From: a bacterium
Lineage (GTDB): Bacteria > Sysuimicrobiota > Sysuimicrobiia > Sysuimicrobiales > Segetimicrobiaceae
Direction: 5' to 3'
DNA length: 64,000 nucleotides
Assembly: GCA_035295165.1 (NCBI GenBank)
Contig: DATGJN010000108.1
Location: 1-64,000 of the forward strand
Shown here: positions 9,254 to 26,583 of the stretch, one piece after another
Numbering within the stretch: position 1 is the stretch's first letter
Layout: each line of letters begins with the position of its first letter
Translations under genes and position numbers: made by a program
Notes under the pieces: model-generated
The model's input: only the letters and a program-made list of their open reading frames with translations
What the model was told of the DNA's origin: nothing
Database searches by the model: none

Positions 9254-11367
9254 GACGGGCTGCCCACCTGCTCCGGTTCGCGGGACGCCGGCGCCTCCTT
9301 GTATGTGCACGCCTTGTTGCTGCAGACCACGGGCGGCGTCGTGCCGCGCCGGGCCCGCTTCGTCACCAGGATGTGGCCGCACTCGGGACAGATCCGCCCG
9401 ACGGGCCGGTCCCAGGATGTGAACGTGCACGCCGGGTAGTTCGCGCACCCGTAGAAGATGCGCCCCTTGCGAGTTCGCCGCTCCACGATCTCCCCGTTGT
9501 CGAGCGGGCACCGCACGCCGATGCCGACCGGCCGGGTGTACGAGCACTCCGGGTACCCTGAGCAGGCGATGAACTCCCCGTAGCGACCGCGCCGCTTCAC
9601 CAGCGGCCGGCTGCAGCGAGGGCATAGCTCGCCGATCTCCTCCGGGACCATCTCGACTTCCTCGATGCTCTGCTCCGCCCGGTGGAGGACCTCCTCGAAA
9701 GGCCCGTAGAACGCGCGGATCAGGCCGACCCAATCCTCCACCCCCTCCTCGACCCGGTCCAGATCCTCCTCCATGTGCGCCGTGAACTCGACGTCGAGCA
9801 CGCTCGGAAAGTGCTCGACGAGCAAGGAGTTCACCAGCACGCCGAGATCGGTGGGGTAGAACCGCCGGTCTTCGAGCTCGACGTAGCCGCGGTGCTTGAT
9901 CGTCTCGATGATCGGCGCGTACGTGCTCGGCCGACCGATGCCGCGGTCCTCGAGCGCTCGCACGAGCGTCGCCTCGGTGTAGCGGGGCGGCGGCTGTGTA
10001 AAGTGCTGCGCGGGATCGAGCCCGAGGAGGCGCAACCGCTCCCCATCGCTGAGATCGGGGAGCCAGCCCTCCGGGGTCTCCTCGTCCCCGTTGTCCCGAC
10101 CTTCCAGATAGACCCGGAGAAATCCCGGAAACTTCACGCGAGACCCAGTCGCCCGGAACCCGTACGGCCCTGCGGTGATGTCCACGGCGAGCGTGTCCAT
10201 CACCGCGGACGCCATCTGGCTCGCGACGAAGCGTTCCCAGATCAGCTTGTACACTTTGTGCTGGTCGGCCTTCAGGAAGGGCTTGACGGACTCCGGGGTG
10301 CGCGCCACCGACGTCGGCCGGATCGCCTCGTGGGCGCCCTGCGCGCCTCGGCGGGACGTGTAGCGGCGTGGGTCCGCCGGCACGTACGGCGCGCCGTACG
10401 TCTCCGCGATGAAGGTGCGGGCCTGCTCCTGCGCTTCCGCCGCCACGTGGACCGCGTCGGTGCGCATATACGTGATCAACCCGACCGTGCCCTCGGGCCC
10501 GACGTCGAGCCCTTCGTAGAGTTGCTGGGCGACGACCATCGTGCGCGCCGCCGAGTACCCGATCTTCCGGTTTGCTTCCTGCTGGAGCGTGCTCGTCGTG
10601 AACGGCGCGGTGGGGTGCCGCTGCTGGTCACGGCGCCGCACCTCGGCCACCACATACGGCACTCGCTCCAACTCCCGGACGAGCGCGTCCGCCTCCGCCT
10701 GGTTGCCGATCGTGATCTTGTCGCCGCCCTTCGTCACGAGGCGCGCCACAAACGGCGTCTCGTCGCCGAGGCGGGTGAGGCGCGCCGCAATGGACCAGTA
10801 CTCCTGGGGCACGAACGCCTCGATTTCGCTTTCGCGCTCGCAGATCAGACGCACCGCCACCGACTGGACGCGGCCCGCGCTCAATCCCCCGCGCACCTTG
10901 CGCCACAAGAGCGGGCTCAACTTGTACCCGACGAGACGGTCCAGCACGCGGCGGGCCTGCTGCGCGTTCACACGGCTGATGTCGATGTCGCGCGGCGCCT
11001 GCAGCGCACGCCGCACCGCGTCCTTGGTCACCTCGTGAAATTCGATGCGCTTGATCTTGGGGTTGACCTGCTGGAGGATGGTCGCCAGATGCCAAGAAAT
11101 GGCTTCGCCCTCGCGGTCTGGATCGGTCGCGAGGTAGACGGCGGACGCCTTTTTGGCGGCCGACTTGAGTTCCTTGATCACCGGCCCTTTGCCCTTCGGC
11201 ACGACGTACTTGGGTGTGAACTCGTGCTCCACGTCCACCCCGAGCTGGCTCCGCGGAAGATCCTTGACGTGTCCCATCGACGCGACCACGTCGTACCGCC
11301 GGTCCAGCAGCTTCTTGAGCGTCCGCGCCTTGGTCGGCGACTCTACCACCACGAGTGATTTTGCCAC
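9250..11367 (-). CDS. topA: DNA topoisomerase I
   Basis: The 705-residue type IA enzyme relaxes negative supercoils. The Toprim start [14 protein letters not shown] and [12 protein letters not shown] metal site are seen, and the catalytic tyrosine is in GLITYMRTD. Three C-terminal four-cysteine zinc ribbons follow: CPRC...CSGYPEC, CPLD...CANYPAC and CPEC...CSNKAC. The GTG at 11367 has AGGAGG six bases upstream and overlaps the stop of the decayed dprA frame (TAGTG). It is the first intact gene after the promoter at 11964-11993 and leads hslV-hslU-carbonic anhydrase. Confidence 0.96.
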
Positions 11368-12228: not shown

Positions 12229-12435
12229 CTAGGCGACCGGCCGCTCCTTCTGCATCCAGATCCGGACGAGATAGTACAGCACGATGACCGTGTTGATCAC
12301 GTTCAGCCCGACGGCCACCGACCACAACGACCCGAAGTCCTGCATCGGGTCCGCCGGGCCCGCACCCCGCATCTTCGCCGCGGGGCCCGCAAGGGCCAGG
12401 ATTACGCTGCTGGCATGGGCGACGTGGGGTGCCAT
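12229..12435 (-). CDS. Small one-helix partner of the MFS carrier
   Basis: This 68-residue protein begins inside the last 34 bases of the MFS gene in another frame, with a strong repeated GGAGGG ribosome site upstream of the ATG at 12435. It has one clear membrane segment near residues 38-60 (LWSVAVGLNVINTVIVLYYL), followed by a charged end (MQKERPVA). Small proteins of this kind accompany some MFS carriers such as oxalate/formate-type antiporters. The tight overlap suggests an accessory subunit, but the substrate and role are not visible. Confidence 0.72.
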   Translation of the reverse strand: MAPHVAHASSVILALAGPAAKMRGAGPADPMQDFGSLWSVAVGLNVINTVIVLYYLVRIWMQKERPVA

Positions 12436-13796
12436 GTGCCCTCCCTCCCTCCGGACAAGAGGTAGCCGAGATAGGTCCGACGGACGCGCGGTTCGATCAA
12501 CGACGCGCAGCACAGGAACCCGAGAATCCCGCACGTCGCGAACATGAGGAACGCACGGTGAAAGTCGGGTCCCGCGGGCGTTTGGATAACCATCGCCGCG
12601 GTCAGCGGCTGTGCCACGGTACTCCCGAGCATGCCGCCGAGCACAACGACACCGAGCGAGCGCCCGACCGCGCCCGGCGTCAGGATCTCCGCCAGGTACG
12701 GCGCAAACAGGGTCCCGGTCGGCGTCCACGACGCGCCGAACCCGGAGATGAAGAACGCGACGTAGGCCGTCATAATCGGCACGCCCTGGCGAAACGTCGA
12801 CGCCCACCCGATCGTCACCGCCATCAGCAGGCCGCCGAGCAGCCAAATCGGCGTGCGTTTGGTCTTCAGCACGATGTCGGACAGGTACCCGCTCAGGAGG
12901 ACTCCGCAGAGCGCCCCAAGATAGACAACCGAGGACAGCGAGCCCGCGACGATGAGCGGCAGTTTGAGCTGTTGCACGCCGTAGGTCGGCAGCCACGTGG
13001 TCAGCCCCCACGACGCCAGCAGGAAGAAGAACCCCGCGCCAAACATGAGCGCGACGTTCCGGTTCGCGAAGATCTCATGGTAGGGTGTAAGGCGCTCGCC
13101 CGGAGGAAGCTCCTCGACGCGATGCGCCCGCGCCGGGTCGGAGATGTCGCCGTGGTGCGTGCGCAGTTCTTCCTCGCTGAAGATCACGTTCAGCTCCTGG
13201 TGCGTCATCTTCGGGTCGCGCTCGGGACGGTCCACGATAAACTTGTTGATCGCGGCGAGCACCGGGAGGCCGAGGAACGACACCACCATGAACGACCACC
13301 GCCACGACCCGGTCGCCTGTGCGATCGGCACGACGATGAACGGTACCAGGATCGGCGCGATCGTATAGGCGGTCTGGTGGAAGGCGAACGCCCGGCCGCG
13401 CGTGCTGGGCGGGAACCACGTCGCGGTCAGCCGCGACCCAGCCGTCACCTCGAACCCCTGCGCGATCCCGAACAGGAGGTTTCGCAGCGCCAGTTGGTGC
13501 CAGTCGCCCACAAACGCCATCGTCCACGTGAACACGGAAAACGCGCCGATGGTGACCGCGAGCATCTTTTTGGGCCCGATCAGATCCGTGAAGAAGCCGG
13601 CGAACGGTTGGACGCATGCGTACCCGAGGAAGAACCAGAACAGGACCTGCCCCGTCTCCTTCGTCGTCATGCCGAGCGAGGCGATGATCAACGGCAACAG
13701 GGCCGCCGTCTTAGTACGGTCGATATAGTTGACGAACCACGCGAGCCATGCGGTGCCGAGCACTTGGTAGCGGCGTTGCGAGAACACGCCTTCCAT
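12402..13796 (-). CDS. MFS transporter, anion:cation symporter-like
   Basis: The 464-residue inner-membrane carrier has twelve predicted helices and the loop-2 motif GFFTDLIGPKKM, typical of MFS; a cytoplasmic central loop (about residues 215-250) divides it. Features such as NYIDRTKTAALLP and GSRLTATWFPPSTRGRAFA resemble carriers for sugar acids, phthalate or other organic anions. The ATG at 13796 has AGGAGGTGG seven bases upstream. It lies 184 bases after the fumarylacetoacetase-family gene and is translationally coupled to the small helix protein. It probably imports the organic acid handled by the neighbouring enzymes. Confidence 0.85.
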   Translation of the reverse strand: MEGVFSQRRYQVLGTAWLAWFVNYIDRTKTAALLPLIIASLGMTTKETGQVLFWFFLGYACVQPFAGFFTDLIGPKKMLAVTIGAFSVFTWTMAFVGDWHQLALRNLLFGIAQGFEVTAGSRLTATWFPPSTRGRAFAFHQTAYTIAPILVPFIVVPIAQATGSWRWSFMVVSFLGLPVLAAINKFIVDRPERDPKMTHQELNVIFSEEELRTHHGDISDPARAHRVEELPPGERLTPYHEIFANRNVALMFGAGFFFLLASWGLTTWLPTYGVQQLKLPLIVAGSLSSVVYLGALCGVLLSGYLSDIVLKTKRTPIWLLGGLLMAVTIGWASTFRQGVPIMTAYVAFFISGFGASWTPTGTLFAPYLAEILTPGAVGRSLGVVVLGGMLGSTVAQPLTAAMVIQTPAGPDFHRAFLMFATCGILGFLCCASLIEPRVRRTYLGYLLSGGREGTWHPTSPMPAA

Positions 13797-13980: not shown

Positions 13981-14955
13981 CTAGGGCCGCCGGCCGACGC
14001 CGGTCCGCGCAGTGCCGGCGCGGGCGGGGACGGACTCGGCGACCACCGGATTCTCCAGCCGGCCCAACGCCTCGATCTCAATCGCGACCGCGTCGCCGTC
14101 CCGGAGAAAGATCGGCGGCTTGCGGGCGAACCCGACCCCGGCGGGCGTTCCCGTGGCAATCAGGTCGCCCGGTTCAAGCGTCAGGATCTCGGAGATCGAC
14201 GCGATCACCTGCGGGATCCCGAAAATGAAGTTGCTGGTGTTCGAGTCCTGCAACACCCGGCCGTTGACCGTCGTGGAAAGCCGCAGCGCCTCGGGGTGCG
14301 GGACCTCGTCCGCCGTCACCAGCTCCGGCCCGACCGGCGTCGACCGGTCGAAGACCTTCCCGATCAGCCACTGGCTGGTGCGCATCTGATAGTCTCGCAC
14401 GCTGACGTCGTTGAGGATCGTGTAGCCGGCGACGTGCGCGTACGCGTCGGTCTCAGCGATGTACCGGCCGGGCCGGCCGATGACGATCGCCAGCTCGGCC
14501 TCGTAGTCCAGCTGCTCGCTCACGCGCGGCAACACGATCGGCTGGCCGGCGCCGATCAGGCACGACGTGAACTTGGAAAAGAACACCGGGTGGTCCGGGA
14601 TCTTCATCCCCGTCTCCGCGGCGTGGTCCCGATAGTTGAGCCCCACGCAGATGACCTTCGGCGGGTGTGGCACGACGGGCAGCAGGACCAGCCCGCGACG
14701 GGCCACACGGATGCCGGGGGCCGCACCGTGGCGCGAGAACGCGACCGCATCCTCCGCCCGACGTCGGGCGTCGCCCCCCTCGCTCAGAAACCGCGTCGCA
14801 TCCGCCGGCACATCGGCGCGCGCGCGCGCGTGTGCGCGCGCCGCGCCGCGGGACTCCAGCAGAGCGGCGTACGCCGCGTTCAGGTCGACCACGTGATCCC
14901 CGTCGACCGCGCCGAGCCGTGCGCCATAGCCCGTCTTGAACGTCACCAATCGCAT
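13981..14955 (-). CDS. Fumarylacetoacetate hydrolase family protein
   Basis: This 324-residue metal-dependent C-C or C-N bond hydrolase belongs to the FAH fold. The catalytic C-terminal domain begins at VICVGLNYRDHAAETG. Metal ligands lie in QLDYEAELAIVIG and NDVSVRDYQMR, and the signature LEPGDLIATGTPAGVG is present. Members act on fumarylacetoacetate, acylpyruvates, 2-keto-pentenoates or ureidoglycolate, and the exact substrate cannot be read here. The ATG at 14955 has GGAGGGAGGA upstream. Codons near 14810-14840 form a GC/GT alternating run (Ala-Arg-Ala-His), a local oddity inside the N-terminal domain. Confidence 0.88.
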   Translation of the reverse strand: MRLVTFKTGYGARLGAVDGDHVVDLNAAYAALLESRGAARAHARARADVPADATRFLSEGGDARRRAEDAVAFSRHGAAPGIRVARRGLVLLPVVPHPPKVICVGLNYRDHAAETGMKIPDHPVFFSKFTSCLIGAGQPIVLPRVSEQLDYEAELAIVIGRPGRYIAETDAYAHVAGYTILNDVSVRDYQMRTSQWLIGKVFDRSTPVGPELVTADEVPHPEALRLSTTVNGRVLQDSNTSNFIFGIPQVIASISEILTLEPGDLIATGTPAGVGFARKPPIFLRDGDAVAIEIEALGRLENPVVAESVPARAGTARTGVGRRP

Positions 14956-15095: not shown

Positions 15096-15977
15096 CTACG
15101 TGCGCAGCCTCGGGTCGAGCGTGTCGCGCAGCCAGTCGCCCGTGAGGTTCACGCCGAGCGCCGTGAGCGCGAGGGCTGCCCCCGGAAACGCCGTGAGCCA
15201 CCACGCGAAGAAGATGTAGTTCCGTCCGTCGCTCACCATGCCACCCCACGCAGCGGTCGGCGGCTGTATCCCGAATCCGAGGAAGCTGATCGTCGCCTCG
15301 GCGATGATGAACTGTGAGACCTGCAGCGTGCTGACCACGATGATCGGGGTGGCGACGTTCGGCAGCACGTGCTGCCACATCACGCGCCCGTTGCGCGCGC
15401 CGGTCGCGATGGCTGCCTGCACGTACTCCCGGTGCCGGAGCGCGAGGATCTCGCCACGCACCACCCGGACGTACAGCGGCCACCCGGCCACGACCAGGCT
15501 CAGCATGATCGTCTGCAGTCCCGCGCCGATGACGGCGTTAATGGTCAGCGCGAGCAGGATGAACGGAAAGCTGAGCTGCACGTCGGCGAGCCGCATCACC
15601 GCCGCGTCGAGCCAGCCGCCGAGGTATCCGGAGAGCATCCCCAGCGCGCAGCCGACGAACCCCGAGATGAGCACGGTCACGCCGCCCACGAGCAGCGAGA
15701 TCCGAGCGCCGAAGATGACGCGCGACAGTACGTCGCGGCCCAGTTGGTCCGTGCCGAACGGGTGCGCGGCGCTGGGAGGTCGGAGCGTGGTCGAGAACTG
15801 TGCCGCGGTCGGGTTGTAGGGAGCCAGCACGGGTGCCAGCGCCGCGCACAGGACGGCCACCGCGACGATCGCGACGCCGAGCGTGCCGGTTCGGCTCCGC
15901 CACAACCCGGGAAGCCCCCTGCCGCCTCGCCGAAGCGCGCCCGTCCTTGGAACGAGCCACCGGGCGGACTCAGCCAT
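15096..15977 (-). CDS. Dipeptide/oligopeptide-type ABC transporter permease (DppC family)
   Basis: This 293-residue inner-membrane permease has an N-terminal helix and five core helices. The family start PFGTDQLGRDVLSRVIFGARISL is present. The coupling loop EYVQAAIATGARNGRVMWQHVLPN contacts the ATPase. It overlaps dppB by eight bases and forms the second half of the channel. The cluster lacks DppD/DppF ATPases, which must come from elsewhere. The 140-base gap to the following FAH-family gene holds nothing recognisable. Confidence 0.92.
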   Translation of the reverse strand: MAESARWLVPRTGALRRGGRGLPGLWRSRTGTLGVAIVAVAVLCAALAPVLAPYNPTAAQFSTTLRPPSAAHPFGTDQLGRDVLSRVIFGARISLLVGGVTVLISGFVGCALGMLSGYLGGWLDAAVMRLADVQLSFPFILLALTINAVIGAGLQTIMLSLVVAGWPLYVRVVRGEILALRHREYVQAAIATGARNGRVMWQHVLPNVATPIIVVSTLQVSQFIIAEATISFLGFGIQPPTAAWGGMVSDGRNYIFFAWWLTAFPGAALALTALGVNLTGDWLRDTLDPRLRT

Positions 15978-16887
15978 ACCGCACCTGGGGATTCAGCCAG
16001 ACGTACGAGAGGTCGACGAGAAAATTCACGAGAATGTAGATCGCCGACGTCAGGAAGACGCCCACCATCACGACCGGAAAGTCGCGGCCGCGCAACGCGT
16101 TGAGGATGTACTGTCCGATCCCGGGCCAGGCGAAGATCGTCTCCGTGACGACGGCCCCGCCGAGCAACTGCCCGGCGTTGAGACCGAACACCGTGACGAT
16201 CGGGATCGCCGCGTTCTTGAGCACGTGTCGTGCGAGCACGCCCCGCTCGTGGATCCCCTTCGCGCGCGCGGTCCGAACGTAGTCCTGGCCGAGCGCGTCG
16301 AGAACCGACGATCGTGTGATCCGTGCGATCTGGGCCGCGTAGAACGCGGTCAGGGTCAGACTCGGCAGGACGAAGTGCGTCCATCCGCCGTACCCGGCGA
16401 CCGGCAGCCAGCGTAGCCAGACCCCAAACACCCAGATCAGCATGAGGCCCAACCAGAATCCCGGAACCGCCTGTCCCGCCGCGGTGGCGGCGATCCCGAT
16501 GTTGTCCACGAACGTGCCCCGTCGGGCGGCGGAGGCGATCCCCACGGGCACGGCCGCGCACGCCACCATCGCGAGCGAGGTGGCCGCTAGCTGAAATGTC
16601 GCCGGGAGCCGGGAGACCACGAGCGAAAGCGCCGGGGTCCGATATCGCAACGATCGCCCGAAGTCTCCGTGCACGGCCCCGCCAAGAAACGACAGGTACT
16701 GCTGCCAGACCGGTCGGTCGAACCCGAGCAGGTGGCGAAAGTACACGATGTCCTTCGGCTGCACATCCTGCGGGAGGAACAGGATCACGGGATCGCCGGT
16801 GATCCGCACGAGGAAAAAGACGACGGTCAACGCCAGAAAGATCGCCAGCACCGCTTGGCCGGCGCGGCCGAGGAGATACCGAGACAT
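15970..16887 (-). CDS. Dipeptide/oligopeptide-type ABC transporter permease (DppB family)
   Basis: The 305-residue membrane protein has the family N-terminus MSRYLLGRAGQAVLAIFLAL and six helices. The coupling motif is YVRTARAKGIHERGVLARHVLKNA, and VVTETIFAWPGIGQ is also typical. It forms a heterodimer with the overlapping DppC-type protein. The gene follows its binding protein by 64 bases. Confidence 0.93.
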   Translation of the reverse strand: MSRYLLGRAGQAVLAIFLALTVVFFLVRITGDPVILFLPQDVQPKDIVYFRHLLGFDRPVWQQYLSFLGGAVHGDFGRSLRYRTPALSLVVSRLPATFQLAATSLAMVACAAVPVGIASAARRGTFVDNIGIAATAAGQAVPGFWLGLMLIWVFGVWLRWLPVAGYGGWTHFVLPSLTLTAFYAAQIARITRSSVLDALGQDYVRTARAKGIHERGVLARHVLKNAAIPIVTVFGLNAGQLLGGAVVTETIFAWPGIGQYILNALRGRDFPVVMVGVFLTSAIYILVNFLVDLSYVWLNPQVRYG

Positions 16888-16951: not shown

Positions 16952-18538
16952 CTACTTCGCCTTCGCTTCCCACATCCAAACCTTCTCGTCGGGACGCGGC
17001 GCCCAGGCGATCCAGTTCGCCACACCGTAGAGGTCATGCTGGTTCCACAGCGGGACCCACGGCGCCATCGGATGCAGCGCCTCCTGGATCTTCCGAAACG
17101 CGGCGTTCCGTGCAGCGGGGTCCACGATCTGTACGGACTTGTTGATCATGGCGTCGGTCTGCGGATCGTCGAATCCGCTGTACGTTTGCGTGCCGACGAA
17201 GAGCTGATCCACGGTGCCGATCGGCTGGAGATCCGGGCCCCATCCCAGAAAGAACATGTCGCCGGCCTTGCGGTTGATGACCTTGTCGAGGTGATCCCGC
17301 CACTCGTTGACCTGGACGTGCACGGTGATCCCGAGCTTGTTGAGCTGCGCGGCGATCGCCTCGGAGACTTCTTTGTCGAGCGGATACCGCCCGCTCGGGG
17401 TATCCAGCGTCAGGGTGAGCTTCGCCGGATCGTACCCGGCCTCCCGGAGCAGTTGTTCCGCCTTCTTGGTGTCGTAATCGTAACATTTGATCGCCGGGTC
17501 GTAGGCCGAATCATACCGGCCGACGTAGCCGCAAATACGTGTGGCCATGCCGCCGAGCACCGACGTGCGCAGCTCGTCCACGTTGATGGCGTAGTTGATC
17601 GCCTGCCGCACCTTGGCGTTCTGCGTCGGGCCGGGGTGCAGCGTCTCGAACGCCAGGTAGTCGATCCGCGAGCTGACCGTGGTGCGAACCGTCGCCCGGC
17701 CACTCCGATTGACCGTGTCCACCGCCTGCGGCGGCACGTCCTTCATGATATCGATCTGGCCAGAAAGCAATGCGGCGAGGCGCGCGCTGAACTCCGGGAT
17801 CACCGAGAACACGACGGCGTCGATTGCCGGGGCGCCGGCCCAATAGGAGGGGGTCTTCGCCAGCGTCAGCGACTGTCCGCGCGCCCACTCCTTAAACGTA
17901 TAGGGACCGGTGCCGATCGGGTGCGCCGCGGCGTAGTCGATACCGACCTTCTGCACGTACTCGGGCGCCAGCATGAACGGGCCCGGCAGCGAGACGTTGT
18001 CGAGGAATGCGGGGAACGGCTCCGAGGTGTGCACCCGCACCGTGTAGTCGTTCACGATCTCGACGCCCGACACCGACTTGAATCGGGGCAGGTAGTGGGT
18101 CTTGTTCTTCGGATCGAGGAGGTAGTCGAACGTAAACTTGACGGCTTTAGCGGTAAACGGCTCGCGGTTGTGGAACCGCACGTCTTTGCGGAGCGTGAGC
18201 TCCCAGGTCTTGTCGTCGAGGATCCTGTACCCGGTCGCCAGCCACGGGATGATCTTCTCCGTCTTCGGGTCCCGCGTAAACAGCAGATCGTAAATGTTTT
18301 CGAGCTGCGCGTTGGTCGTCCAATCGACGATCGTTGCCCCCATCAGGGTCAGCGGCTCGCTGCCGATGCCGATCGTGATCTGGTTGTGCGCCTGGGCGTC
18401 GGCGGCCGTGGAGGCCGGCCCAGGACCGAGCCCACCCACGGCCATCCCGGCCCCGGCGGCGATCCTGAGAAACGTTCGGCGCGTGACGTGGCGACCCCAC
18501 TGGCACCTCGGTGGGCGTGCAGCGCGCTCGGCCGTCAT
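16952..18538 (-). CDS. Tat-exported peptide/organic-substrate binding protein (SBP family 5)
   Basis: The 528-residue extracytoplasmic receptor delivers substrate to the DppBC-type permeases. The N-terminus has a Tat signal (TRRTFLRIAAGAG and a hydrophobic segment, cleavage near the Ala-rich region before HNQITIG). The mature protein shows SBP5 features: NIYDLLFTRDPKTEKIIPWLA, WELTLRKDVRFHNREPFTAK, and AHPIGTGPYTFKEW. The ATG at 18538 is preferred over one seven codons upstream because GGGAGGGGG precedes it. The ligand is not deducible; family members bind peptides, nickel, opines or sugars. Confidence 0.92.
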   Translation of the reverse strand: MTAERAARPPRCQWGRHVTRRTFLRIAAGAGMAVGGLGPGPASTAADAQAHNQITIGIGSEPLTLMGATIVDWTTNAQLENIYDLLFTRDPKTEKIIPWLATGYRILDDKTWELTLRKDVRFHNREPFTAKAVKFTFDYLLDPKNKTHYLPRFKSVSGVEIVNDYTVRVHTSEPFPAFLDNVSLPGPFMLAPEYVQKVGIDYAAAHPIGTGPYTFKEWARGQSLTLAKTPSYWAGAPAIDAVVFSVIPEFSARLAALLSGQIDIMKDVPPQAVDTVNRSGRATVRTTVSSRIDYLAFETLHPGPTQNAKVRQAINYAINVDELRTSVLGGMATRICGYVGRYDSAYDPAIKCYDYDTKKAEQLLREAGYDPAKLTLTLDTPSGRYPLDKEVSEAIAAQLNKLGITVHVQVNEWRDHLDKVINRKAGDMFFLGWGPDLQPIGTVDQLFVGTQTYSGFDDPQTDAMINKSVQIVDPAARNAAFRKIQEALHPMAPWVPLWNQHDLYGVANWIAWAPRPDEKVWMWEAKAK

Positions 18539-18578
18539 GGAGCGGTCACCCCCTCCCATACGATGCCGCCGAGACGGT

Positions 18579-19781
18579 TCACCGTCGTACGGCGGCGACG
18601 GTCTGGGACTCCAGGTCTCGCGGGAACTTGGTCGTGACCTCGGGCCGGCCCTGCTTCACGATCACCGTGTCGTCGTGCCGGAACCCCCCGACGCCGTACA
18701 GATAGATCCCGGGCTCGCAACTAAACACTTCGTTCTCGACGAGCGGCCGGAAGTTGAACGCGATGTCGTCGGGGAACTCGTGCCCCGCGAGGCCGATACC
18801 GTGTCCCGTCCGGTGGACGATCCGATCGCCGTAGCCATGCTGCTCAAACACCCGCTGGGCCGCCGCGTCGGCATCGGCCATCGTCGCGCCGGCCACAAAC
18901 GCGGCGGCAGACGCGTCCTGCGCCTCGTACGCCGCTTGAAACGCCGCGGCCTGCTCCTTGCTCGGGGTGCCGACGAAAAACGTCCGTTCGTTCTCGCAGA
19001 CGTACCCGTTGAGGCGCGGGATGATCACGTTCACGATGCCGTGTCCGCGTTCGATCACCTGCCCGTAGTTCCCGCTGATCCCGTGCGGGCACGCGGAGTT
19101 GGGGCCGGTGAGCCCCGCGACCCGGATCTCCACCTTGTAGTCGGGCCAGCGCCGAATCGCTTCGGTGCAGATCTCGTGCGCGACGAGCGTGTCCACTTCC
19201 GCGAGCGGCCGGCCCGGCGCGAGGTGCTCGCGATACCGCTGCTGTCCCCAGTCGCTCAACTCGGCGCCCTGACGGATGAGCGTGAGCTCCTCCTCGTCCT
19301 TGACCTCGCGCATCTCTCGCAGAAGACGCCCGGCCGCGACGAGTTCAACGCCGGGCAGGAGCGACGGCACCTGGCCGATTGGGCCGGCGGTGCTGTCCAC
19401 CCCGAGCCGGCCCCGGCGGATCCCCTTGCGCCGCAGGAGATCGGCCACCATCTGGGGCCACTGCGGCGTCAGGTACGTGCGGTGCTGCATCCGGTAGTGC
19501 TCGGCGTAGAAGTGCACCTCGGGAATCCACATCGATTTGTGCTCGGTCGCGTACCGGACATGGTTCGTCGATAGCTCGTGCATAACCAGGAACGGGTCCG
19601 CGTCGCGCGGGATGATCGCCGCCACCGGGCGTTCCCACGGCTGGACGTCGAGGAAGTATCCGGACACGTACAGGAAGTTCTCGGGAGTCAGCACGACGAG
19701 GGCGGCCAGATCCGCGTCGAGGAGCTCCTTGCGAATGCGGGTCAGCCGGTCCTGATACACGCGGCGGCTCAGGTATCCCAT
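18579..19781 (-). CDS. Creatinase/M24-family hydrolase with altered metal site
   Basis: The 400-residue protein has the two-domain pita-bread fold: a creatinase N-domain (residues 8-155) and an M24 C-domain (about 165-385). His327 in RTGHGIG and Glu356 in SCEPGIY are kept. The first two metal Asp positions read Ile/Asn around residues 251-265 (NVIIPRLNGYVCENERTF), and the last Glu is Asp370. Such loss is known in metal-independent creatinase-like enzymes. It leads an importer operon, so it may cleave an imported C-N bonded compound. The ATG at 19781 has GGAGGTG upstream. Confidence 0.85.
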   Translation of the reverse strand: MGYLSRRVYQDRLTRIRKELLDADLAALVVLTPENFLYVSGYFLDVQPWERPVAAIIPRDADPFLVMHELSTNHVRYATEHKSMWIPEVHFYAEHYRMQHRTYLTPQWPQMVADLLRRKGIRRGRLGVDSTAGPIGQVPSLLPGVELVAAGRLLREMREVKDEEELTLIRQGAELSDWGQQRYREHLAPGRPLAEVDTLVAHEICTEAIRRWPDYKVEIRVAGLTGPNSACPHGISGNYGQVIERGHGIVNVIIPRLNGYVCENERTFFVGTPSKEQAAAFQAAYEAQDASAAAFVAGATMADADAAAQRVFEQHGYGDRIVHRTGHGIGLAGHEFPDDIAFNFRPLVENEVFSCEPGIYLYGVGGFRHDDTVIVKQGRPEVTTKFPRDLESQTVAAVRR

Positions 19782-19999
19782 CGATTCACCTCCGGAGAGT
19801 CGGCGCGGCGGCCGCGGGCGCACCGCGACGGACGCGGACGGCCCCGCGGGCACCCGCGAGGCATGCGCAACGCCGAGGAGTTCCGCGTCCCGGCGATCGT
19901 GTCCTTCGTCCGGGGCCGTCCCGCCGCGCGATCGTGGGGGCCCGGCGGTGGTGCCGCAGCCGGCAGGGAAGCGCACCCTCGCAGCGAAACGGGTCGACC

Positions 20000-20515
20000 A
20001 TGAGCACATCCACCGTGGATCTGGCGCACTACTTCGACTACCTGTGCAAGGCGCGGGAACGGCTGCTGGGCTGGGTGCGGAGCCAGCCCGCGGAAACATA
20101 CACACGCGCGTTTCCGTTTGGCATGGGCTCGATCCGCGCGACGCTCGTCCACACCGCCGCCGCGCAGTACAGCTACACCCAGCGGCTGGGCGGCAAGGAG
20201 TTTTCGCCCGCGGACAACCCGTTCAGCGGGGACAAGCTGCCTGAGCTTGAACCGTTCGTCGCCGCGTGGTCGCGGCTCAACCCGCAGACTCGGCAGGCGT
20301 TGGCTGATCTCGGGGACGGGACGCGGCCGATCGAGTTCACGAACCGGATGTTCACCCCTCCGAGACGCATGCGGGCGACGGCCGGGGGCATCGCCGGGCA
20401 GCTGTTCTTTCACGAGGTGCATCACCGCGCGCAGGTCATGGCCATGCTGCGGCAACTCGGGGTCGCGGCGCAAGACCTCGACTACAGCGTGGTCATGTTC
20501 GAACGCCTCGAATGA
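20000..20515 (+). CDS. DinB-family putative metal-binding protein
   Basis: This 171-residue four-helix-bundle protein belongs to the DinB/YfiT superfamily. Candidate metal histidines are in the TLVHTAAAQYSY segment and in HEVHHRAQVMAML. Members include thiol-dependent transferases and proteins of unknown function. The ATG at 20000 is chosen because the family begins with a DLAHYFDYL helix. It is divergent from the M24 gene, sharing a 218-base upstream region. Confidence 0.82.
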   Translation: MSTSTVDLAHYFDYLCKARERLLGWVRSQPAETYTRAFPFGMGSIRATLVHTAAAQYSYTQRLGGKEFSPADNPFSGDKLPELEPFVAAWSRLNPQTRQALADLGDGTRPIEFTNRMFTPPRRMRATAGGIAGQLFFHEVHHRAQVMAMLRQLGVAAQDLDYSVVMFERLE

Positions 20516-21231: not shown

Positions 21232-22113
21232 TCACGCTTTTCGCAGACGCGGATCCAGCGCGTCCCGTAGGCTGTCCCCCACCACGTTCAGCGCGACCAC
21301 GAGCGTCAGGATGGCCAGCCCCGGAAACGTGGCGATCCACCACTGGTCAAGGTAGTCGCGGCCGGCGGCGATCTCCGAACCCCATTCCGGAATCTGGGGC
21401 GGTGGACCGAGCCCGAGGAAACTCAGCGACGCGAACGTCAGGATCGCCCGCCCCACATCGAGCGTGCTGAGGATGACGATCGGCGACAGGATGTTCAGGA
21501 GGACATGCCGGACGAACACCCGAAGAGGCGACGCTCCCACGGCGCGGGCCGCCTCCACGTACTCCCGATCGCGCGCTCCGAGCACGAGGCCGCGGGCAAA
21601 CCGCGCATACGTCGGCCACCACGCGACCATGATCGCGATGATCGCATTCCGGATCCCCGCCCCCAGCGCGGCCGAAATGATCATCGCGAGGATCACCGTG
21701 GGAAACGCGAGCATCAGGTCGGTCAGACGCATGATCGCCTCGTCCACCGTGCCCCCCACGACGCCCGCGACGCTGCCGATCAGCGTGCCGAGCACGACGG
21801 CGAGCCCGACGGCCGCGATGCCGACCGGAATGGACAGACGCGCGCCGTACAGCACCCGACTCAGGATGTCCCGGCCGAGCGGGTCGGTGCCGAACCAGTG
21901 GGCCGGGCCCGGCGGAGCGAGCCGCCCCGCGATGTCCTGCGCCAGCGGTCCATACGGAGCGATCACCGGGGACGCCGCGGCCACGGCGAGCCACCCCGCG
22001 ACCACAACGATCGACGCGATCGCGAGCGGCGAGCGCACAAACGCTTTCGGCACAGCACCGGACAACACGCCGCGTCGCCGCGCCGCGCCGCGCAGGGCCG
22101 TGTCGGCCGCCAT
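21232..22113 (-). CDS. Peptide-type ABC transporter permease (DppC family), second cluster
   Basis: The 293-residue permease has the N-terminal helix, the HWFGTDPLGRDILSRVLYGARLSI motif and six helices. The coupling loop is EYVEAARAVGASPLRVFVRHVLLN. It follows the DppB-type gene by three bases. As in the first cluster, no ATPase genes are adjacent. It pairs with two alternative binding proteins upstream. Confidence 0.92.
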   Translation of the reverse strand: MAADTALRGAARRRGVLSGAVPKAFVRSPLAIASIVVVAGWLAVAAASPVIAPYGPLAQDIAGRLAPPGPAHWFGTDPLGRDILSRVLYGARLSIPVGIAAVGLAVVLGTLIGSVAGVVGGTVDEAIMRLTDLMLAFPTVILAMIISAALGAGIRNAIIAIMVAWWPTYARFARGLVLGARDREYVEAARAVGASPLRVFVRHVLLNILSPIVILSTLDVGRAILTFASLSFLGLGPPPQIPEWGSEIAAGRDYLDQWWIATFPGLAILTLVVALNVVGDSLRDALDPRLRKA

Positions 22114-22116
22114 CGC

Positions 22117-23136
22117 TCAGCCCATCCGGATGCGCGGGTCGACGATCGCATACGCGATGTCGACCAGCAGGTTGACGAGGATGTAGACCGTCGCGACGAC
22201 GATCCCGACGCCCATGATCGCGGGGAAGTCAAGCGAGGTCGCACTCTGGAACGCGTACGAACCCAGCCCGGGCCACGCGAACACCGTCTCCGTCACCACC
22301 GCCCCCGAGAGCAGGCCCCCGAAGCTGAGACCGATCACCGTGATCACCGGCAAGAGCGCGTTCCGCGCCGCGTGCCGTATCGTGATCCGTCGCGGAGCGA
22401 GCCCCTTCGCGCGCGCGGTGCGCACATAGTCCTCGCCAAGCACCTCGAGCATGCTGCCGCGCATCATGCGGGTGATGATGCCCACAGCCGACGACGCCAG
22501 CACAAGCGCGGGCAGCGTCAGATGCGAAAGCGCATCCACCGCCACGTCCGTCTGTCCGGCGAGCAGCGCGTCGATCACGACGAACCCGGTCGTAAACGGC
22601 GGCAGCGCGAGGCGGGGGCTCAGCTGTCCGGCGGAGGGCGCCCAACCCAGGCGGGCGTAAAACAGGAACAGCGCCACCAACCCCAACCAGAACACGGGCA
22701 TCGACACGCCGATAAGCGATCCGCCGCGTCCGATCTGGTCGATCACGGAGTCCCGCCGGATCGCCGACACGATCCCGAGTGGAATCCCAAACACAAGGCT
22801 GATCACCATCGCGGCGGTCGCGAGTTCGATCGTCGCGGGCAGATGCTGCGACAGATCTTGCACCACCGGCTGGTGCGTGGAGATCGACACGCCCATGTCG
22901 CCGCGCACGAGCCTGCCGAGGTAGATGAGATACTGCTCCGGCAGCGGCCGGTCGAGCCCCCAGCGGTGCTTGAACGCGGCGACGACCGCCGGGTCGGCGG
23001 CCGCCTGATCACCGAGATTCGCCGCGATGGGGTCGGACGGAACCGCGTGCGACAACACGAACGTGAGGAGCGTGATTCCAAGAATCATCAGCGGCAGCAC
23101 GAGCACTCTCCGACCCACGTAGGCCTGAAGATTCAC
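22117..23136 (-). CDS. Peptide-type ABC transporter permease (DppB family), second cluster
   Basis: The 339-residue inner-membrane subunit is longer than its counterpart at 15970 because of an extended loop near residues 165-205. The family features VGRRVLVLPLMILGITLLTF, YVRTARAKGLAPRRITIRHAARNA and VVTETVFAWPGLGSYAF are present. It lies 39 bases after a binding-protein gene. Confidence 0.93.
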   Translation of the reverse strand: MNLQAYVGRRVLVLPLMILGITLLTFVLSHAVPSDPIAANLGDQAAADPAVVAAFKHRWGLDRPLPEQYLIYLGRLVRGDMGVSISTHQPVVQDLSQHLPATIELATAAMVISLVFGIPLGIVSAIRRDSVIDQIGRGGSLIGVSMPVFWLGLVALFLFYARLGWAPSAGQLSPRLALPPFTTGFVVIDALLAGQTDVAVDALSHLTLPALVLASSAVGIITRMMRGSMLEVLGEDYVRTARAKGLAPRRITIRHAARNALLPVITVIGLSFGGLLSGAVVTETVFAWPGLGSYAFQSATSLDFPAIMGVGIVVATVYILVNLLVDIAYAIVDPRIRMG

Positions 23137-23175
23137 GTCGCGCTCCCGCTGGACACCGCGTCCGGTCGGCCCGGC

Positions 23176-24831
23176 CTACCCGCGGCGGATCGTGTAGAAG
23201 TCGACCTCCCACACGCTGTTGTACGTCACGCCCCGCACGTCCGATCGGAAGCCGAACGGGAGCGCGGGCGTGAACAGCGGTGCGTAGGGCCCGATCTCCA
23301 GGAGGCGCCGTTGGGCCTTCTGGAGGAGCGCGACCCGCGCCTTGGGATCGGCTTCCTGGGTCGCCTGGTCGCCCCACTGGGCGAGTTCCTGGGCGGCCGG
23401 GCTCGCGCTCGCCGGCCAGTTCATCCGTTTGCCGACGAGTTGGCCGGGCAGGTACACGAGGAAATCCGTCGCGTCGGGATAGTCGGCTGCGTACCCGCCG
23501 AACAGCGCCGGCGCCTTCCCTGCGCGGTACTGCCCGAGTTCGATCGTCCCCGGCAGGCCGTCCAAGTCGATCGTGATGCCCACGGACGCAAGGTCGGATT
23601 GGATCTTCTGCGCGAGCAGCGAGTACTGGATCCCGTAGGAGGTCGCGTCACTCGCGAACATCAGCCGGCCCTTCGCCGCGGACAGACCGGCGTCCTTGAG
23701 CAGGGCCTTCGCCTTATTCTTGTCGGTCTTGACCGCCTCACGCGGGTCGAGCGCTCCCGGCAGATCGTTCGGGATCACCCCAGCCATGCGCTGGGCGCCC
23801 GGTCCCGCGATTTGGAGAATGCCGTCGTAATCGAGCGCGTACCGGATCGCCTGCAACACCTTGGGGTTCGCGAGCTGCCCGGACAGCGACGGATCCATGT
23901 TCACCATCATCACAAACGATGTCGCGACGACGCTCGACTGGATGGTCACGGACGACAGGCGGCGCAACGTCGCGAGGTTTTCCTGTCCGAGGCTCATTGC
24001 GAGATCAAGATCCCCGCGTTCGAGTTGCAGCGCCTGCGTGGAGGACTCCGGCACGCTGCGAAGCACGATGCGATCCATCTTCGCCGGCGCTCGCCAGTGA
24101 TTGGGATTCCGCGCGAGCACGAGCTCCTGGGTGGGTGTGTAGCTTTGAATCATGAACGCGCCGCTGCCGGCGGAATGCGACTGGAGCCACGCCTCGGCGT
24201 GGTCCTTGGTCTTGGCGTCGACGCTCGCGTCCCCGCCCTGCGACGTCACGAGCTTGCTGTCCATGATGCCGAGCGCCCCGTTCGACAGAATCGGCAGAAT
24301 CGACGGTTGAGGGGCTTTCAGACGCAGCACGATCGTCTGCGGATCCGGCGCTTGGACCTCGTCGACGTTGGCGAGGAAGAACGCCGGGTTCGACTGAAGA
24401 TTGATCACCCGGTCGAACGACCATTTCACGTCGGCTGATGTCAGCGGATTGCCGCTCGCGAATCGAATCCCCTGGCGCAGCGTGAACGTGTAGAGCCGGC
24501 CGCCTCCGGAGACCTTCCACGAGGTGGCAACGTGCGGCTTCGGTGTGGACAGGTCCGCCCCGTCGAACGTCACGAGCGCGTCATAGCACGCGTGCGTGAC
24601 CATCTCGCCGTCCGGTTCCAGCGTGTGCCCCGGGTCCAGGCTCCGGATGACGAAGTTCGGCGCCATGATGAGCGTGTTCGGAGTCGGCGCGGTCGCCGCG
24701 GCGGCCGTCCGGTCCCGTCCCAATCGTCCCGCGACCGCGAGCCCGGCCGCCCCGCCCGTTCCCTTGAGCAGCGTCCGGCGGCTCAGTCGGCCTGTTGCGG
24801 TGGACCCCACCAGTGCTCCCGTTCGTGTCAT
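23176..24831 (-). CDS. Tat-exported peptide-type binding protein (SBP family 5), copy A
   Basis: The 551-residue receptor has a twin-arginine signal (LSRRTLLKGTGGAAGLAVAG). The mature protein has the SBP5 fold: YDALVTFDGADLSTPKPHVA, the IRFASGNPLTSADVKWSFDR segment, and AGSGAFMIQSYTPTQELVLARN. It is clearly paralogous to the next upstream gene over the full length, and both end with a VRGVTYNSVW segment. It lies directly in front of the dppB-type gene. The ligand is unknown. Confidence 0.92.
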   Translation of the reverse strand: MTRTGALVGSTATGRLSRRTLLKGTGGAAGLAVAGRLGRDRTAAAATAPTPNTLIMAPNFVIRSLDPGHTLEPDGEMVTHACYDALVTFDGADLSTPKPHVATSWKVSGGGRLYTFTLRQGIRFASGNPLTSADVKWSFDRVINLQSNPAFFLANVDEVQAPDPQTIVLRLKAPQPSILPILSNGALGIMDSKLVTSQGGDASVDAKTKDHAEAWLQSHSAGSGAFMIQSYTPTQELVLARNPNHWRAPAKMDRIVLRSVPESSTQALQLERGDLDLAMSLGQENLATLRRLSSVTIQSSVVATSFVMMVNMDPSLSGQLANPKVLQAIRYALDYDGILQIAGPGAQRMAGVIPNDLPGALDPREAVKTDKNKAKALLKDAGLSAAKGRLMFASDATSYGIQYSLLAQKIQSDLASVGITIDLDGLPGTIELGQYRAGKAPALFGGYAADYPDATDFLVYLPGQLVGKRMNWPASASPAAQELAQWGDQATQEADPKARVALLQKAQRRLLEIGPYAPLFTPALPFGFRSDVRGVTYNSVWEVDFYTIRRG

Positions 24832-24912
24832 GCGCGGCCCCCCTTTTCGAGACTGACGCCCCAGGGAACACCGGCGTCGGCGCCGTGCTCCCTGGGGCGG
24901 GTGTGGCGTCGT

Positions 24913-26583
24913 CTACGCGGTCTTGCTAATCGTGTACAGGTCCATAGCCCACACGCTGTTGTACGTCACCCCCCGCACGTTGGACCGGAATGCGTACGGG
25001 ATCGCAGGTTGGAACAGCGGCGCGTACGGGCCGACCTGGGCGAGCATCCGCTCCCACTGCTGGAGCAACGCGACACGCTTCTTTGGGTCGACCTCCGCCT
25101 CCGCCGCATCGGCCATCGTCGCGAGCTTCTGCGCGTCGGCCGACGCCGACGGCAGCCAGCCGGCACGCTTCCCGACCACGCGCCCGGGCGCGTAGACGAG
25201 AAAGTCGGTGGCGTCCGGATAGTCGGCCGCCCAGCCCCAGACGCCGAACTGGTCCTTTCCGCCGCGGTAGAGCGCGAGCGATGTCACGGTGGGCAGGCCG
25301 TCGAGCTTGAGCTGGATCCCGACGGCTGCGAGATCAGACTGAATCTTCTGGGCCAACAGCGCGGTCGGGATGCCGAACTGGATCGCGTCGCTCGAGTACG
25401 AGAACGTCCCGCTGACCGTACTCAGCCCGGACTCCTTCAGGAGGCTCTTGGCCTTCTCAGGGTCGGTCTTCGTCGCCGCGCTACTCGGGAGCGAGCCTGG
25501 CAACAGGGTCGGAATGACCCCGGCGAGCCGCACGGCTCCCGGCCCGGCGATCTTCAAGATGCCGTCGTAGTCGAGCGCATATCGGACCGCCTGCTGGACC
25601 TTGGGGTTCGCGAACGCGCCGCCGACCTCGGGGGTGTTGTTCATCAGGACGTAGAACGTGGTCGCCGACGGGCTCGTCTGGACCACGACGTTCGGCGCGC
25701 GGCGGAGCGATGGAATTTGATCGGGTCCGATGTTGGCCGCGACATCGAGGTCCCCCCGCACGACTTGGAGCGCCTGGGTGACCGGGTCCGGCACATTTCG
25801 GATGACGATGCGCTCCAACTTCGGACGACTCCCCCAGAAGTTGGGGTTGCGCACGAGCACGAGCTCCTGGCCGGCCGTGTAGTTTTGCGTCATAAACGGA
25901 CCGCTTCCGGCGGAGTGCGCCAGCAGATACGGTTCCGCGTGGTCCGCGTTGTTGGCGTTCGGCCCAGCATCCCCACCGTTCTGGATGACGAGTTTGCTGT
26001 CGAGAATCCCCAGGCCGGGGTGGGAAAGGATCGGGATCAACGGCAACAACGGGTCCTTCGTGCGGAGGACGACGGTCTTCGGGTCGGGCGCTTCGACGCT
26101 GCTCACGCCGTCGAACAAGAAGGACGTGTTCGCCTTGAGGTTGAGAATCCGGTCGTAGGTCCACTTCACGTCGGCCGAGGTCAGGGGGTTGCCGCTCGCA
26201 AACTTCACGCCCTGCCGCAGCGTGAACGTGAACGTCTTCGCGTCCGAGCTCACGGTCCAGCCGGTCGCCAGATGCGGCCGCGGCGTGCGCAGGTCTTCAC
26301 CGGCGAACGTTAACAGGGTGTCATAGGTGACCTTCTCGACCATCATGCCGGTGACTTCGATGGTACGGCCGGGATCGAGGGTCTTGATTCCCGCAAAATC
26401 GATCGCAAACAGCAGCGATCCCATGTCGGCGCTCGCCGCCTCGGCCCGCGGGGTCCATGGCGAGGGTTTCAGCAGGCCCGCTGCGGCTAACCCCACCCCG
26501 GCCCCCGCCGTCCGAAGAAATGTCCGCCGGCTAACCCGCCGCGTGCTACTGCTCGTCCCGAGCCGCCGCTTTCCTTGGCCCAT
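24913..26583 (-). CDS. Tat-exported peptide-type binding protein (SBP family 5), copy B
   Basis: This is a 556-residue paralogue of the gene at 23176-24831, with a Tat signal (VSRRTFLRTAGAGVGLAAAG). Shared landmarks are VKFASGNPLTSADVKWTYDR, AADYPDATDFLVYAPGRVVGKR and the C-terminal VRGVTYNSVW. It is the first large gene of the second importer operon. The ATG at 26583 has GGAGGGGGATGAGGA upstream. Two receptors sharing one permease pair would widen the ligand range. Confidence 0.92.
   Translation of the reverse strand: MGQGKRRLGTSSSTRRVSRRTFLRTAGAGVGLAAAGLLKPSPWTPRAEAASADMGSLLFAIDFAGIKTLDPGRTIEVTGMMVEKVTYDTLLTFAGEDLRTPRPHLATGWTVSSDAKTFTFTLRQGVKFASGNPLTSADVKWTYDRILNLKANTSFLFDGVSSVEAPDPKTVVLRTKDPLLPLIPILSHPGLGILDSKLVIQNGGDAGPNANNADHAEPYLLAHSAGSGPFMTQNYTAGQELVLVRNPNFWGSRPKLERIVIRNVPDPVTQALQVVRGDLDVAANIGPDQIPSLRRAPNVVVQTSPSATTFYVLMNNTPEVGGAFANPKVQQAVRYALDYDGILKIAGPGAVRLAGVIPTLLPGSLPSSAATKTDPEKAKSLLKESGLSTVSGTFSYSSDAIQFGIPTALLAQKIQSDLAAVGIQLKLDGLPTVTSLALYRGGKDQFGVWGWAADYPDATDFLVYAPGRVVGKRAGWLPSASADAQKLATMADAAEAEVDPKKRVALLQQWERMLAQVGPYAPLFQPAIPYAFRSNVRGVTYNSVWAMDLYTISKTA

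Follow-up and report, generated by a model that had tools for sequence, protein, structure and literature searches.

The M24B protein encoded on the minus strand at positions 18579..19781 of the window (the whole 64,000-nucleotide stretch analysed here) has a predicted creatinase-type active site, and judging from its sequence there is an even chance that it is a creatinase-type hydrolase of C-N bonds in a small imported zwitterion. This reading is favoured because E265 and R51 accompany it. It further draws on the match of R51, H233, E265 and E356 to creatinase residues, on the invariance of the site in 23/23 subfamily sequences, on the tree made from all alignment columns, on the co-inheritance of a solute-binding protein (SBP) and on the neighbours of the homologues. 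Opening of a small nitrogen compound brought in by the importer is a more likely role for the protein than peptide cleavage. Creatine itself is not indicated as the substrate by the present data.

The M24 gene (protein P0001, 400 aa) starts with an ATG at 19781 and ends with a stop at 18579, giving 400 codons. The start codon is backed by aligned homologues with a matching N-terminal start. Pfam identifies the Peptidase_M24 (PF00557, 1.6e-37) and Creatinase_N (PF01321, 4.1e-13) domains in the protein, and an NCBIfam profile search of it found no equivalog near cut-off. The gene leads an importer operon, as the earlier note had proposed. It heads a tight minus-strand run that continues with an SBP_bac_5 solute-binding protein of the peptide/nickel/opine class (16952..18559; PF00496, 1.1e-89) and, by profile match, an OppB/DppB/NikB-type permease (15970..16887) and an OppC/DppC/NikC-type permease (15096..15977). 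The gap between M24 and SBP is 19 bp, that between SBP and oppB is 64 bp, and oppB and oppC overlap by 8 bp. A gene for a FAH-family enzyme (13981..14955, ORF possibly from 14988; PF01557, 3.4e-74) and one for an MFS transporter (12402..13796; PF07690, 5.4e-48) follow more loosely on the same strand, after gaps of 107–140 bp and 184 bp, respectively. The promoter scan of the sequence found no promoter-like site, and the terminator scan found 8 terminator-like sites versus 4.1 (sd 2.2) in shuffles, none of which is used for the operon call. Thus, the operon structure rests on spacing.

The active site was compared in an alignment of the M24 protein, its relatives, the other M24 proteins of the genome, DoeA-type proteins and Pseudomonas putida creatinase, for which the sequence of PDB 1chm_A was used (match 401/401 residues). 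The canonical M24 ligands D, D, H, E and E correspond to V252, E263, H327, E356 and D370 in our protein, and to N249, A260, H324, E358 and H376 in creatinase. His327 (codon 18801..18803, minus strand as for all codons given here) and Glu356 (18714..18716) are the two retained metal ligands, as the earlier note had read them, and Asp370 (18672..18674) indeed replaces the last metal Glu. The other two identities given in that note need correction. For the first metal Asp it had Ile/Asn, which is close: Val252 occupies the position and an invariant Asn251 stands just before it (19026..19031). At the second metal Asp it had Asn/Glu; the Asn is the next residue, 264, so that the note was off by one residue at both Asp sites. 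The position itself holds Glu263, and Glu265, the counterpart of creatinase Glu262, comes after Asn264 (18987..18995 for the three residues). The idea that the protein lacks most metal ligands is overstated, because in two of the three replacements one acid takes the place of another, which that note passed over, and only one of the five positions, the first Asp (now V252), loses a metal-capable side chain.

Outside the ligand positions, Arg51 in the N-terminal domain (19629..19631) aligns with creatinase Arg64, and His233 (19083..19085) aligns with creatinase His232, whose role we take to be catalytic. Arg64 and Arg335 of creatinase are presumably the arginines that hold the substrate carboxylate. 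The roles of Arg64, His232, Glu262, Arg335 and Glu358 are reportedly set out by Coll et al. 1990. Creatinase Arg335 aligns to D338 of our protein in a gapped stretch beside an insertion, where the alignment is unsure. This apparent difference, together with that of His376 to D370, would make the pocket unlike that of creatinase and argues against the creatinase-type reading. An AlphaFold model built on a six-row alignment is poor (mean pLDDT 44.8).

The subfamily set used for conservation has 23 sequences, 15 from genomes of the phylum, Sysuimicrobiota, and 8 from Proteobacterial plasmids, with a minimum pairwise identity of 43%. Across this set 84 of the 400 positions do not vary; they include R51, H233, N251, E263, N264, E265, H327, E356, D370 and D371. 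At position 252 the residue is V, I or L. The altered active site is thus fixed and not a product of chance or decay, since N251, E263, H327, E356 and D370 are the same in all 23. A decayed pseudogene is ruled out by this invariance and by the dN/dS of the M24 gene, which is 0.094 between the window and genome G001 (0.097–0.104 for the importer genes). That the protein is a pseudoenzyme without catalysis, serving in binding or as a scaffold, is very improbable. Its canonical ligands are changed and M24 pseudoenzymes do exist, for example a relative of Ebp1 (PMC3888471), but acidic and histidine residues are kept at the altered positions in all 23 sequences, and the importer linkage is as expected for catabolism.

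The main rival of the creatinase-type reading is that of a one-metal M24 hydrolase or peptidase, in which loss of the first Asp would abolish the weak metal site and E263, H327, E356 and D370 would keep the metal of the tight site. This metal would then carry out the catalysis, the substrate being peptide-like or an amide. We consider it the less likely of the two. Four of the five ligand positions are metal-capable and all four are invariant; judging by their side chains, these residues could together still hold one metal. In human prolidase (PMC8438212) the Mn near His370 is tightly bound and that near Asp276 weakly, the latter being the type of position that is lost here. The importer belongs to the peptide class, and a full-ligand M24 protein of the same genome also adjoins such an importer. 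On the other hand, the E-for-D and D-for-E swaps alter the reach of the side chain at both positions, where E-R-T relatives and creatinase retain still fewer ligands (E or A at the one, S or H at the other), and our protein retains creatinase Glu262, which the full-ligand M24 sequences lack.

Four acids (E263, E265, E356 and D370), two histidines (H233 and H327) and R51 would lie in the pocket. Such a pocket suits a cationic or ureido nitrogen group together with a carboxylate, as creatinase accommodates, or one metal ion. Under the creatinase-type reading, the imported compound would carry a carboxylate as well as a C-N group of cationic or ureido nature. R51 would hold the carboxylate of this substrate, and the acidic cluster E263/E265/E356/D370 would hold its nitrogen end. 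H233 would activate a water molecule, and hydrolysis of the C-N bond would, as with creatinase, need no di-metal centre.

The link between the M24 protein and the importer is strongly supported. Members of the subfamily (at least 49% identity) occur in 14 of the 43 genomes of the phylum. An orthologue of the SBP (E <= 1e-110) is present in 12 of these 43 genomes, and every one of the 12 belongs to the 14 that have the M24 protein. The oppC gene shares a gene run with M24 in 12 of the 14 genomes, the exceptions being G009 and G002. In G009 the M24 contig is 4 kb long and the genome has no SBP. G002 retains M24, FAH and MFS beside a remnant of SBP and OppC. The gene order is M24-SBP-oppB-oppC in family f1 and SBP-oppB-oppC-M24 in family f6, and two genomes (G029 and G035) have the SBP gene on a contig other than that of M24. 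As a control, 2 of 12 other M24 regions in the window's genome lie no more than about 5 kb from an Opp-type importer, one of them adjoining a full-ligand M24 gene. Such a neighbour alone therefore says little, and co-inheritance says more.

Two side observations concern these loci. In G002 (L045, about 10100–10425) SBP-oppB-oppC is reduced to a direct SBP/OppC codon joint between M24 and FAH, which may be a natural loss of the importer or an assembly fault. In family f6 (L052, 3213–5874) the importer cluster has an M81 (MlrC-type) gene and a further M24 gene beside it.

FAH and MFS, which the earlier note had counted among the operon partners, do not share this distribution. They adjoin M24 only in genus g1 (G000, G001 and G002), an 81% relative of FAH is present in G005, and relatives of MFS are present in G008 (80%) and G010 (73%), all three being genomes without M24. 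The two genes are thus rejected as conserved pathway partners. The idea of FAH as a partner in the pathway is weak, because its adjacency is at the genus level and it is found in a genome without M24; the MFS carrier is likewise a neighbour only within the genus.

Two trees bear on the relation to creatinase. The main tree has 51 sequences and uses all columns, and in the second tree the active-site columns are masked. Near-duplicates, one MetAP and one stop-containing sequence were removed before tree building, and the second tree is additionally without two long branches (L068_1 and L072_1). The all-column tree separates creatinase, our subfamily and part of the E-R-T class from DoeA and the full-ligand M24 proteins with support of 98/98, and our subfamily itself has 100/99. 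Creatinase is a long branch in this tree, and the ligand-poor L071_1 is also on its side. With the active-site columns masked, the creatinase grouping is a single clade in 16% of bootstrap trees, which counts against the creatinase-type reading. With the same columns masked, the grouping has an AU p of 0.537 and a likelihood slightly above that of the free tree, and a grouping of our protein with DoeA (AU p 0.305) is also not rejected. A Sinorhizobium M24 protein (L078, 4001–5161) still pairs with creatinase in the masked tree (98/89). Also against the creatinase-type reading, our protein matches prolidases (best 3.9e-31) better than creatinase (1.1e-12) in a phmmer search. Full-length orthology with creatinase was not found, the match being 1.1e-12 and the masked-column tree leaving the grouping open. 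The description of the protein as creatinase-like is supported: residues matching Arg64, His232, Glu262 and Glu358 and the all-column tree bear it out, although the grouping has no firm support without the active-site columns.

Creatinase (1chm, 7yto) shares with our protein the M24B class, the positions Arg64, His232, Glu262, His324 and Glu358 and the loss of the first metal Asp. It differs at Asn249 (V252), Ala260 (E263), His376 (D370) and apparently Arg335 (D338), and the overall match is weak (1.1e-12). Prolidases or Xaa-Pro dipeptidases (1pv9, 3q6d, 4ege) are the best sequence matches and share the PH, GHG, HE and EPG motifs, but their Asp-Asp-His-Glu-Glu ligand set is not kept and E265 is absent from full-ligand sequences. 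Of the features of an M24 metallopeptidase, our protein thus has the M24 and Creatinase_N domains and lacks the D-D-H-E-E set. Ectoine hydrolase DoeA/EutD (6twj) is also an M24B protein with altered metal ligands. Unlike our protein, the DoeA sequences have neither the E-R-T glutamate nor the GHG or EPG motif. Membership in the DoeA family is rejected, as our protein scores 54.5 bits versus the NCBIfam TIGR02993 cut-off of 613 and the motifs differ.

The M24 fold is also used for chemistry other than peptide cleavage, as in the DMSP lyase DddP, and our protein might by analogy be a lyase or another small-molecule enzyme that is not a hydrolase. The precedent of DddP (PMC4108388) and the diversity of importers beside the relatives (Pot, Opp, Liv and TRAP) are in line with this, but we consider it improbable. 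DddP keeps its metal ligands (Asp295/297/307, His371 and Glu406/421), whereas our protein has lost the first Asp and shows E/D swaps.

The neighbourhoods of the homologues vary. The window's genome holds an additional paralogue of the M24 protein (73%), with an asparaginase-family gene 30 bp downstream. Divergent to it are an ABC importer (binding protein, ATPase and two permeases), M20, HyuA and HyuB; the top profile for the latter two is that of caprolactamase subunits, below cut-off. The best ten homologues in the plasmid collection have 44–47% identity, and eight of these ten loci were examined. A divergent ABC importer is present at 5 of 5 Rhizobium loci examined, which are closely related and count as one observation; the one Rhizobium binding protein profiled is weakly PotD-like. 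In Rhizobium tropici CIAT 899 the region has, besides the homologue, EutB and EutC (above cut-off) and an M20 amidohydrolase. DoeA-like genes share this cluster, and because the two DoeA-like M24 proteins score 407 and 559 bits versus the DoeA cut-off of 613, the substrate of the eut-like cluster may be an ectoine relative. Sarcosine oxidase genes lie near the Terrarubrum homologue, a LysR gene beside that of Burkholderia arboris and a TctC-type protein beside that of Cupriavidus. The Burkholderia, Cupriavidus and Terrarubrum homologues have no adjacent importer of the Opp kind, and this variation of neighbours by lineage counts against the creatinase-type reading. The suggestion of a creatine-, ectoine- or opine-like substrate fits the eutB/eutC, DoeA-like, sarcosine oxidase, hydantoinase-type and N-carbamoyl-amidohydrolase-type neighbours, but no single substrate follows from them.

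E-R-T M24 proteins without the first metal Asp are found in Deinococcus, a haloarchaeon, Cytobacillus, Sinorhizobium, Leisingera, Neorhizobium and elsewhere in the phylum, and all of these except Neorhizobium have an Arg64-like arginine. For example, the order in Deinococcus psychrotolerans is SBP-permease-permease-M24-S10-M20, where the M20 protein scores 321.7 bits, above the hydantoinase/carbamoylase family cut-off of 204 bits. Scans of viral contigs for further relatives found none. It is conceivable, and we put it forward tentatively, that our protein is a branch of a large creatinase-type M24 class of dedicated hydrolases for imported nitrogen compounds in bacteria and archaea. Such a class might be marked by the E-R-T signature, the Arg64-like arginine, the absence of the first metal Asp and the change of the last Glu to D, S or H; our branch might have a distinct N-E-H-E-D site that is not yet described.

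The fold and its precedents, creatinase and DoeA, are already known. No paper on this M24 subfamily, and no description of its active-site set and importer partnership, was found in the literature searched, most subscription journals being outside its scope. Proteins of the E-R-T type and of our type are annotated as Xaa-Pro peptidases, though their active sites depart from the peptidase pattern in a fixed manner. Should they be small-molecule hydrolases, many of the catabolic operons of soil bacteria and haloarchaea carry a wrong annotation. In that case, prolidase, our protein, the E-R-T group and creatinase would form a natural series from a di-metal peptidase site to a metal-free amidine/ureide hydrolase.

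Several further observations were made. There are 19 M24 matches in the window's genome, two of which by eye have Glu for the first Asp; five of the 19 by eye lack the canonical ligand set, namely our protein, its paralogue, L003, L069_1 (DoeA-like) and L071_1. The Sinorhizobium M24 gene at L078 4001–5161 lies beside a Liv-type importer and is annotated only as an Xaa-Pro peptidase. The eut-like cluster on R. tropici plasmid b (L064, 9505–26125) contains EutB, EutC and three M24 genes. Beside the M24 gene of the window is a divergent ORF at ~19994–20515 that is DinB-like by eye. Just upstream, at 21232–26583 and on the same strand as the M24 operon, there is a second Opp/Dpp-type importer (two permeases and two solute-binding-protein genes), which is kept beside the M24 operon in G001 and G002.
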